A stretch of DNA of 49,814 nt from positions 31,619-81,432 of the forward strand of contig DTZW01000322.1 of assembly GCA_012961165.1 (NCBI GenBank), given 5' to 3'. Position 1 is the first letter of the stretch, and each line of letters starts with the position of its first letter. Shown here one piece after another: positions 22,838 through 43,474 of this stretch. The translations under genes were made by a program, and so were the position numbers. The notes beneath the pieces are model-generated. The model did not search any database. It worked only from the letters and a program-made list of their open reading frames with translations, and had not been told where the DNA came from. This DNA comes from Gammaproteobacteria bacterium (GTDB lineage: Bacteria; Pseudomonadota; Gammaproteobacteria; Pseudomonadales; Azotimanducaceae).

Positions 22838-22989
22838 CCACGGGCTTTTTTTTGCGCCACGGGCTTTTCTTGCGCCACGGGCTTTTCTTGCGCCACGGGC
22901 TTTTCTTGCGCCACGGGCTTTTCTTGCGCCACGGGCTTTTCTTGCGCCACGGGCGTTTTTGCGCCACGGGCGTTTTTGCGCCACAGGCG
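22838..22989. repeat. ~18-bp minisatellite (ccacgggcttttcttgcg), 8 full copies plus partial
   Basis: 19-bp copy at 22838-22856, five 18-bp copies 22857-22946, two 17-bp copies 22947-22980, then partial ccacaggcg. Confidence 0.97.
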
Positions 22990-38192: not shown

Positions 38193-38293
38193 TCTGGTCT
38201 GGACCAGTATGAAAAGGTCTTATCCTAACTAGTGAGAGGCAGCATAGTGAAGCCATAATCGGATCCGTCATCCTCTAATAAAGGTACATAAAT

Positions 38294-38511
38294 ATGGACC
38301 TGATAAATCAAGCAGAGAACCTGGCACCCCTATTACGCGAAGCTGCACGAGAAGCTGTTCTGCAGATCAGCGCAGAGACCGGTGCCAGGGCGGTCACTTG
38401 AGCAATCCCATCCAGCGAGCACTACGGGACATCTCCATTGCCACGAATCACGTGATCTTCTCAAAGACCAACCGATATGGCGATGTTGGGCGATCTTTAA
38501 CCCGACGGTAA
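38294..38511 (+). pseudogene. C-terminal remnant of acyl-CoA dehydrogenase/flavin monooxygenase-like gene
   Basis: MDLINQAENLAPLLREAAREAVLQISAETGARAVT* then shifted frame SNPIQRALRDISIATNHVIFSKTNRYGDVGRSLTRR*; resembles acyl-CoA_dh_2 C-terminus (NPLQRxxRDxxxAxxH...GR). Confidence 0.65.
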
Positions 38512-38530
38512 TGACCCAACACGAAGATAT

Positions 38531-38662
38531 AAAGACTATACGCACCAGGATTTGTAGATGATGGAAGACTATAGGCACCAGGATTTATAGATGATGAAAG
38601 ACTATAGGCACAAGGATTTGTAGATGATGGAAGCCTATAGGCACAAGGATCTATAGATGATG
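38531..38662 (+). repeat. 33-bp tandem repeat x4, each with SD-like sequence and ATGATG; overlaps MFS start
   Basis: Units 38531-38563, 38564-38596, 38597-38629, 38630-38662, consensus [ag]aag[ac]ctata[cg]gcac[ca]aggat[tc]t[ga]tagatgatg. Confidence 0.97.
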
Positions 38663-40003
38663 ACTGAACCAATACGAGCGTTACGGCTGGGCGCCTTTGC
38701 GTCACCGGCATTCACGATAGCCGCCCTCGGCTTACCTATCTCCATATTTTTGCCACCGCTATATGCCGAGCTTGGCATCAGCCTGACGGTCATCGGCATG
38801 GTATTTATGTTGACTCGCGTTTTCGATGTAATCACAGATCCATTGTTCGGTTGGCTGGGCGATAAGTTAGAGACTCGCTGGGGACGCCGGCGACCGGCAA
38901 TCATTGCCGCCGTACCGTTCCTGGGTGCGGGTGTCTATTTCGCTTTCTTTCCCGGCGAATCTGCTTCCGCGGTGACGTTGTTTCTATCTATGCTTTTGCT
39001 TTACGCAGGATGGACTGCGTTCACGATTTCCCATACTGCCTGGGCAAGTGAATTGTCAGAAAATTATGACGAACGTTCACGCATCATGGGCATGCTGCAG
39101 ATCTTCGGGTTACTTGGCACCTTACTGGTCGCGATACTTCCCACAATTCTGGATTTCACGACGCCTGGCGCGACAATGAGTCAAAGAACTGGTTTAACCG
39201 GCGCGCTGGTTCTAATCAGTTTACCTTTGCTTGCACTGTTAGCGGTATCGTCCGTAGGCGAACGCAAGCGAGTTCAGCAAAATGTGCCTATCGCCTGGCG
39301 TCAGGCACTGAGCTCCATCGTTAAAAACCATACACTAAGACGGTTGCTGCTCGCCGACCTACTCATGGGATTTCAGAGCGGTATCAATGGCACAGTCCAT
39401 TTCTTCTTTATCGCTGTCGTTTTACAAATGCCTGACTACGCCAGCTTTTATCTGGTGGCATTGTTTGCGACAGGATTACTATCAGCGCCCCTATTTGTAA
39501 AACTAAGTTATCGTCTCGGTAAGCATCGTACACTCTGCGTTGGCACGCTCATTTCCAGTGTCGGCACCTGTGCGTTATTTTTCATACCTGCAGGTGGATT
39601 CTGGCTAACGTTCGGCGCTTATCTATTTATCGGCCTGAATTTTGGTGCACGCGACCTTCTCATGCGATCCATCATGTCGGATGTTATTGATGAAGATACG
39701 GTGAATACGGGAAGAGAGCGCAGCGCTTTATATTTTTCGATGTTAACGCTCACCGCCAAATTGGGCGCAGCCCTGGCGATCGGCACGATCCTGCCGGTCC
39801 TTGATTGGGTAGGTTTTGACCCACGGGGCGAGAACACACAAGCCACTCTGGATGGGGTGAGGTTCGTCGTCGCGGCGACACCCACACTAGTGCTCTTTGC
39901 GGTCGCGGCAATCATGTGGCATTTTCCCCTGGACCGAGAGAGACAAAGTTCCTACAGAATTGAGTTGGATCGCCACAAGCATACAAACACAGATATTTCT
40001 TAA
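38657..40003 (+). CDS. MFS transporter, MelB/GPH-type family
   Basis: 448 aa; LTRVFDVITDPLFGWLGDKLETRWGRRRPAIIAAVPFLGAGVYF, 12-TM pattern. Confidence 0.93.
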   Translation: MMTEPIRALRLGAFASPAFTIAALGLPISIFLPPLYAELGISLTVIGMVFMLTRVFDVITDPLFGWLGDKLETRWGRRRPAIIAAVPFLGAGVYFAFFPGESASAVTLFLSMLLLYAGWTAFTISHTAWASELSENYDERSRIMGMLQIFGLLGTLLVAILPTILDFTTPGATMSQRTGLTGALVLISLPLLALLAVSSVGERKRVQQNVPIAWRQALSSIVKNHTLRRLLLADLLMGFQSGINGTVHFFFIAVVLQMPDYASFYLVALFATGLLSAPLFVKLSYRLGKHRTLCVGTLISSVGTCALFFIPAGGFWLTFGAYLFIGLNFGARDLLMRSIMSDVIDEDTVNTGRERSALYFSMLTLTAKLGAALAIGTILPVLDWVGFDPRGENTQATLDGVRFVVAATPTLVLFAVAAIMWHFPLDRERQSSYRIELDRHKHTNTDIS

Positions 40004-41687: not shown

Positions 41688-43423
41688 GCGTTGCCCGATT
41701 GAACCATTTTCGCCCAGGTATCCCGCAGGCCAACGACACGATTAAAAACCAGCGCGTCCGGTGTTGAATGCTTACTATCGACACAGAAGTAACCTTCACG
41801 TTCAAACTGGAACCTTTCGTCCGACGACGCCTGTTTCAATCCAGGCTCAACAAAGCCCTGGTGAACCTTAAGTGACTCATCATTCAGCAACTCGTGATAG
41901 TCACGCTCATCAGCATCGGGGAAATCAACGGTAAAGAGTGGTTCGTATACCCGTATCTCTGCTGGCAGCCCTTCAGTTGCAGATACCCAGTGAATGACGC
42001 CACGCACCTTACGACCTTCCGGGTTTTTCCCCAGGGTATCCGGATCATAGCTCGCGCGAATCTCTACGATATCACCAGCGTCATCCTTAATGACCTGTTC
42101 AGCCTTAATCACGAATCCGTACCGAAGTCTTACTTCATTTCCCAGCACCAGGCGCTTGTACTTCCTGTTGGCTTCTTCCCGGAAATCCTCCCGGTCTATA
42201 TAAAGCTCCCGGGTAAAGTTCATCGAGCGTGTACCCATGGTTTCATCTTTAGGGTGGTTCGGTAGCTCAAGGCTCACACCCCCAATCGCACTTTCCCCTT
42301 CCGGGAAATTCTCAATGACCACCTTCACCGGGTTCAACACACCCATCACCCGAGGCGCCGAGGCGTCGAGTTCCTCACGGATACAGCTCTGCAAAAGCGC
42401 CAGTTCAACATTGTTATCGCTCTTTGTAACGCCTATACGGCGACAGAAGTCCCTGATAGAGGCAGAGGTATAGCCGCGACGACGCAACCCTGACAAGGTT
42501 GGCAAACGCGGATCATCCCAGCTGTCTACCATGTTTTCCTCGACCAGTTGTCGAATCTTGCGTTTACTCATTACCGTGAACTGCAGGTTCAACCGGGAGA
42601 ATTCGATCTGTTGTGGGTGGCAGTTCGTTGCCAGCTCATCCAGCACCCAGTCGTACAGCGGGCGATGATCCTCGAAGCTCAGGTCACACAGTGAATGTGT
42701 AATCCCCTCCAGGGAGTCCGACACACAATGGGTGTAGTCGTACATGGGGTAGATACACCATTCATTACCCGTCTGGTGATGCTCAATATGCCTGATGCGA
42801 TAAATCGCCGGGTCTCGCATATTGATATTCGGTGAATTCATATCGATCTTGAGTCGAAGGATGTGTTCTCCATCGCCGAACTCACCCGCTCGCATTCGTC
42901 GAAACAGGTCGAGGTTTTCATCAATCGTTCTAGATCGATAGGGGCTGTCCTTTCCAGGCTGGGTCAATGTGCCACGATATTCCCTTAGCTCATCTGCTGA
43001 CAGGGAATCAACGTAGGCCTTGCCTTTCTTTATCAACTGTTCAGCGAAATGGTACAACTGCTCGAAGTAGTCGGAGGCAAATCGCTCTTCTTTCCAGTTA
43101 AAACCCAGCCATTCAATGTCGCGCTTGATCGCATTAATATACTCAATGCTTTCCTTCAACGGGTTCGTATCGTCAAAACGAAGATTCGTAGCCCCCGTAA
43201 ACTCCTCGGCCATGCCAAAACTCAGACATATCGCCTTTGCGTGACCGATATGGAGATAGCCATTGGGTTCAGGAGGAAACCGGGTCATGACCTGACCGGC
43301 GTTTTTCCCATCCGCTACATCTTTCTCGATGATGCTTCGAATGAAGTTACTTGGATATTGTTCTTCGGTATTGCTCATTTCAGTATTACTCATTTCGGTA
43401 CTACTTGTTTCGGTACTAGTCAC
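41684..43423 (-). CDS. glnS: Glutaminyl-tRNA synthetase (likely native start at the last MSNTEE, 43378)
   Basis: 579 aa in the ORF track; [57 protein letters not shown]. Confidence 0.97.
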
Positions 43424-43435: not shown

Positions 43436-43474
43436 CAACTATCTAACAACTATCTAGCAACTATCTAACAACTA
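43436..43474. repeat. 11-bp tandem repeat (caactatctaa), 3.5 copies
   Basis: caactatctaa/caactatctag/caactatctaa/caacta; ends in the TauE/SafE gene stop codon (43472-43474). Confidence 0.95.

Follow-up and report, generated by a model that had tools for sequence, protein, structure and literature searches.

The closest described counterparts of the locus are the MIRUs of mycobacteria, the 5'-leader VNTRs, and the bicistronic designs and nfORF boosters. The MIRUs of the senX3-regX3 intergenic region are short repeats located where a gene begins; they carry a small ORF coupled to the gene that follows, and their repeat make-up varies between strains (PMC12548453; PMC4213456). Direct repeats before a start codon, with a possible effect on translation and with copy numbers that differ between genomes, are described for 5'-leader VNTRs, e.g., the AGAT repeats of Moraxella uspA2 and the TAACTGA repeats of marine Beggiatoaceae (PMC4679880). 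In the bicistronic designs and nfORF boosters, a short ORF with an internal ribosome-binding site ends at the start of the gene (PMC13255528; PMC12548453). In synthetic constructs in E. coli, short upstream ORFs of at least 8–10 codons that end beside such an internal site raised translation by as much as 20-fold (PMC13255528), and genes spaced this closely are commonly coupled in bacteria (PMC12548453). Our search of the literature for tandem copies of a bacterial start region returned the MIRU and TAACTGA repeats and no identical case, nor was a serial version of coupled short ORFs, with tests, found in the literature searched.

The locus described here lies in a window of 49,814 nucleotides (the whole stretch of DNA that was analysed) from the genome of an uncultured marine bacterium (G000), a draft of 480 contigs with an estimated contamination of 8%. 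It shares with the MIRUs the short repeats at a gene start and a small ORF placed for coupling to the gene downstream. However, the MIRUs are dispersed and apparently mobile and insert at start codons with a -4 nt overlap, whereas the array is a single-locus copy of the gene's own start. The ends of MIRU ORFs overlap the neighbouring start or stop, while the internal units of the array abut (TAG directly followed by ATGATG) and only the leader ORF at 38511 overlaps through its TGA. The identity with MIRUs was rejected, as the unit is not dispersed. The uspA2 and TAACTGA units measure 4–7 bp and precede the start; the 33-bp unit, by contrast, includes the start codon, a Shine-Dalgarno-like site and a stop. 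The bicistronic and nfORF cases resemble the ancestral 16-codon leader of the locus, but they are single units, often synthetic, whereas a natural leader is followed here by three more units in series.

Structure of the array

Four copies of a 33-bp unit lead directly into the start of a gene encoding an MFS transporter. The array was detected by TRF at 38532-38662 with a period of 33, 4.0 copies, 90% matches and a score of 206, and was alternatively called as two copies with a period of 66 (score 231). The features of the locus, all on the forward strand, are as follows:

38511..38561, +, 16-codon upstream ORF, MTQHEDIKTIRTRICR-TGA, the TGA of which (38559-38561) overlaps the first ATGATG of the array (sequence, three-species alignment and translation)
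38531..38662, +, 33-bp tandem array, four copies, 132 bp in all (TRF; unique in the genome)
38547..38645, +, 99-bp insertion of three 33-bp units in the register AGGAT...CAC[C/A], missing from both sister species (its collapse gives a gap-free sister alignment)
38558..38590, +, micro-ORF 1, MMEDYRHQDL-TAG, with an AGGA Shine-Dalgarno-like site upstream (anti-SD duplex -4.1 kcal/mol)
38591..38623, +, micro-ORF 2, MMKDYRHKDL-TAG, with AGGA upstream (-4.1 kcal/mol)
38624..38656, +, micro-ORF 3, MMEAYRHKDL-TAG, with AAGGA upstream (-5.2 kcal/mol); its TAG directly adjoins the MFS start
38657..40003, +, MFS transporter of 448 aa, similar to glycoside-pentoside-hexuronide:cation symporters (Pfam MFS_2, TIGR00792)

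The earlier note, made from the letters of the window alone, had read three micro-ORFs in the frame of the MFS gene, with every stop adjoining the next ATGATG and a Shine-Dalgarno-like site near each start, and this reading was reproduced as quoted, up to the N-terminus of the transporter (MMTEPIRALRL...). The ATGATG motifs stand at 38558, 38591, 38624 and 38657, and an AGGA precedes each of them, 7 nt separating it from the first ATG. Before the last two starts the site is AAGGA instead of AGGA, with a slightly stronger predicted Shine-Dalgarno pairing (-5.2 versus -4.1 kcal/mol). The count of four repeats given in the note holds for the copies, but only three of them form complete start-to-stop units in the MFS frame, abutting each other and the MFS start. 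The first copy (38525-38557), which has no ATGATG, consists of the 3' part of the 38511 ORF in a different reading frame. Every unit contains a stop in each of the three forward frames, and a frame on the reverse strand is open because the period is a multiple of three.

Dinucleotide shuffles of 480 kb of the genome contained one array scoring at least 50 and none scoring at least 100; as such arrays are nearly absent from shuffled sequence, the 33-bp array is not a product of chance. The unit gave no BLAST match elsewhere in the 5.34-Mb draft, and only the four copies of this array match at up to three mismatches. A dispersed element was rejected, since the unit was found at no second locus of the genome. 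The plasmid records searched with the leader gave no match.

Against the Pfam profile MFS_2 (PF13347) the MFS protein scored 245 bits, with a cut-off of 27, and against TIGR00792 (gph) 163 bits, which is below the curated cut-off of 231. The gene is flanked by a methyltransferase-like ORF upstream and a gene of the glyoxalase family downstream.

Comparison with related genomes

DNA of the array region is carried by only three of the 17 genomes of the genus: that of the window, G004 (record JABJED010000228.1, isolate SI073_bin94) and G011 (record CALKBV010000020.1, isolate FRAM_RAS_EGC1617_bin11). The MFS proteins of the two sister species are 98% and 95% identical to that of the window. At the same site, and with matching flanks, the window genome has four copies of the unit and G004 and G011 have one each (one genome per species); the single unit reads ...ATAAAGACTATACGCA(C/G)CAGGATCTATAGATGATG... 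in both relatives. When 99 bp were deleted from the window, the alignment with the sisters was free of gaps across the junction. As exactly one unit is present in both sister species, the 99 bp were gained in the lineage of the window. The suggestion of the earlier note that the translation-initiation region had been tandemly copied is thus borne out by the sister species with one copy. The comparison of copy numbers and the search upstream of orthologues, which it had proposed, gave one unit in both sisters, while the more distant MFS relatives (36–67% identity) have no recognisable leader and no array, so that the reliable comparison of the leader covers three species. The array has the features of minisatellites or VNTR-type loci, i.e., head-to-tail units within the range of about 10–100 bp and a copy number that differs between related genomes. 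The MFS orthologue of G011 (L056 / L003) contains single-base indels and is split into several frames, being either a decaying gene or a result of sequencing errors.

The 16-codon ORF, which had also been correctly described as ending in a TGA within the first ATGATG, is common to the three species. Its sister versions are MTQHDDIKTIRTRIYR and MTQHEDIKTIRSRIYR, where the TGA overlaps the ATGATG of the MFS gene itself. The arrangement of a translationally coupled leader, with the TGA overlapping ATGATG and AGGA lying 7 nt upstream of the ATG inside the ORF, was found in all three of them. As the ORF is open with its TGA over ATGATG in each species, the ancestral state was one coupling-type leader and the array came later. 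The 16-codon ORF is, therefore, an older, shared element and, by its layout, a conventional translational-coupling leader.

Growth of the array and its substitutions

All three inserted units share a C-to-T change at position 6 and a C-to-G change at position 28 (register AGGAT...CAC), and the outer half-units are ancestral at these positions. Beyond the two common changes, the inserted units differ at four further columns, and the array is thus old enough to have gathered substitutions. Since two changes are common to the inserted units and the other differences are later, the array grew stepwise, by duplication, mutation and amplification; the simplest reading of this order is growth in two or more rounds.

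The earlier note had taken the preservation of the reading frame as a cue for selection, which turned out to be uninformative, as, of the 72 single changes that the eight internal codons allow, only 4 create a stop codon. The comparison of synonymous and non-synonymous changes between the units, which it had likewise proposed, gave two synonymous and four non-synonymous changes for the six variable columns in the frame of the micro-ORFs, against 13:55 possible in the eight internal codons. The changes in the micro-peptides look neutral and carry no sign of constraint, although they are few for a codon-based test of selection. The 14 nt of AGGAT, TAG and ATGATG are free of all six variable columns (hypergeometric P 0.024, with the nucleotides chosen post hoc), and for the start and stop codons alone P is 0.12, which is a weak hint that the initiation signals may be kept across the units.

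Tandem repeats in the genome and the genus

The density of tandem arrays was estimated from samples of 480 kb for the window genome, up to 1.06 Mb for G011, 300 kb for G013 and 100 kb for the more distant genome G041; the sample of G004 (55 kb) is too small to be rated. The window genome contained 57 arrays (11.9 per 100 kb), against one in the shuffles, a value that is approximate given the estimated 8% contamination and the inclusion of contig L111, which is dense in repeat-protein sequence. In G011, 19 arrays were found in 280 kb (6.8 per 100 kb), in G013 10 in 300 kb (3.3 per 100 kb), and the density in G041 was 2.0 per 100 kb. No excess of arrays was seen on the 5' sides of genes relative to the 3' sides, with 8 versus 13 in the window genome and 9 versus 13 in G011. 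ORFs with a copied start outnumbered those with a copied stop by 8 to 2, in a scan that is biased, as it allowed many candidate starts per ORF.

Other arrays also vary in copy number between the same species. A 32-bp array before a gene start (L064:15014-15112) has three copies in the window genome, two in G011 (L152) and one in G004 (L153). At glnS (- strand), where arrays occupy 43364-43422 and 43436-43474, an 11-bp array just upstream of the gene has 3.5 copies in the window and 14.4 in G004 (L094), and an in-frame 15-bp array over the N-terminus ([M/T]S[N/S]TE-like residues) has 3.9 copies versus 5.9 in G004. The starts of other genes were likewise duplicated in tandem. In G011, an 83-bp unit is repeated about 3.6 times (L082:1035-1333); each copy has an ATGAAAGTCGG... 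start, and the truncated copies end in a TGA that overlaps the next ATG. This unit holds the first codons of a phosphodiesterase-like gene (MKVGVVSDTHNNL...); the homologous region of the window genome is in L061, just before the window, and G003 matches the region as if it were single-copy. A 21-bp unit (about ACAGCCATGAGCGAGTAATAG) lies on the start of a TauD-like gene in G011 (L087:16112-16230) and in the window genome (L100:8641-8697), where the TauD-like frame lacks an ATG at the usual position. Repeats related to the 21-bp unit match many places in G013, G003, G004 and the window genome, which suggests a repeat family dispersed across the genus. The window also contains an 18-bp array of 8.4 copies at 22838-22988 (CCACGGGCTTTTCTTGCG; 96% matches, TRF).

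Explanations of the array

The array is probably a lineage-specific minisatellite expansion over a translation-initiation region, tolerated since its last copy is intact and affecting the gene modestly at most, by serial initiation. A tandem duplication would have taken in a 33-bp segment comprising the Shine-Dalgarno-like AGGA, the TAG-ATGATG stop-start junction and the first bases of the MFS gene. The extra copy would then have gained two substitutions and been amplified, giving three additional units ahead of the gene. The array would persist because the last copy keeps the native initiation region whole, and, since the last start stays whole when a gene start is duplicated, its survival can be explained without a function. 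The array is inferred to have arisen by replication slippage or unequal recombination, to be nearly neutral and to allow reinitiation. The sparing of the initiation signals by the variable columns, the slightly stronger predicted Shine-Dalgarno pairing before the last two starts and the age of the array speak against this reading. If the leader is transcribed and translated, ribosomes coming from the 16-codon leader or from an extra ATGATG would stop within a few nucleotides of the next AGGA and ATGATG and could restart there, giving a chain of coupled mini-cistrons. Judged from this layout, serial reinitiation between the units is plausible and the change in transporter output is expected to be modest at most.

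The earlier note had offered three options side by side, namely a copy-number-tunable translational rheostat, a leader-peptide regulator and a neutral slippage product. The product of slippage or duplication is the best supported of them, given that the array is confined to one lineage of an array-rich genome and that the same species differ in the copy number of other arrays; no evidence was found for the other two options. In a rheostat, the number of initiation and termination units would determine how many ribosomes reach the MFS gene, with slippage yielding heritable expression variants. The placing of AGGA 7 nt from ATGATG in each extra unit, the TAG adjoining the next start and the lack of mutations in the initiation and termination signals of all units speak for it, as do the boost of translation by short upstream ORFs in synthetic E. 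coli constructs (PMC13255528) and the expression of Moraxella uspA2, reportedly set by the number of leader repeats (as cited in PMC4679880). However, each sister species has a single copy, so this is no conserved device, and the arrays of the genome are not concentrated at gene starts. The predicted opening energy of the MFS start is 7.1 kcal/mol with four units and 4.6 kcal/mol with one; the former falls among the values for shuffled inserts (6.5 +/- 2.4), and G011 with its single unit has a higher one (7.7). A tuned rheostat is thus unlikely and unsupported. It is also quite unlikely that the genus repeatedly builds "start-site ladders", i.e., mutable translation control set by copy number through serial termination and reinitiation, of which the 33-bp MFS array, the 83-bp units of G011 with their ATGA overlaps, the 21-bp repeats before the TauD-like gene and 13-bp repeats before another gene would be examples.

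A regulator acting by attenuation or stalling, in which a ligand or the supply of an amino acid is sensed by the 16-codon leader, the micro-peptides or both, would fit the open ORF of each of the three species and the 91.5% identical columns over its 47 nt, versus 86.7% in the upstream region, a comparison of three close sequences. It is improbable, as no terminator-like hairpin was found in the leader, no Rfam match exceeded chance, the leader was not seen in the next relatives (at most 67% identity), and the micro-peptides have no run of a single amino acid and carry substitutions that look unconstrained. A riboswitch or known RNA was rejected, since the single Rfam hit is at chance level (E 0.65). 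The promoter scan returned one weak site (38232-38259), no more than in shuffles, and none in the array. We consider it very improbable that RNA structure explains the array, in that the ancestral junction is a near palindrome (ATCTATAGAT) whose copies would pair and hide the starts depending on copy number. The predicted fold of the 196-nt leader is somewhat better than those of shuffles (z -2.18; 7 of 200 shuffles did as well). In this fold unit 1 pairs with unit 4, enclosing units 2 and 3, and the extra starts take more energy to open when four units are present; the cost at the MFS start, however, is no higher than with shuffled inserts, and translating ribosomes would unfold the pairing. 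An assembly artefact is a concern in a metagenome-assembled draft with this number of contigs and this contamination, but it is barely credible for an array of only 132 bp whose four copies differ at several sites and whose flanks match the sisters without rearrangement.

Biological meaning

The MFS array looks like one of several such arrays in an array-prone group, i.e., an ordinary lineage-specific expansion. Lineage-specific tandem expansion explains it well, and regulatory tuning by the array is unlikely; the ladder of micro-ORFs could slightly alter the translation of the MFS gene. The locus shows clearly, and with the ancestral state known, how a minisatellite can grow over a gene start without loss of the gene, the last copy keeping the native site; what results is a natural row of mini-cistrons arranged for coupling. 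If output does change with the number of units, nature would have evolved a control of translation initiation by copy number, and one could directly measure what serial reinitiation does.
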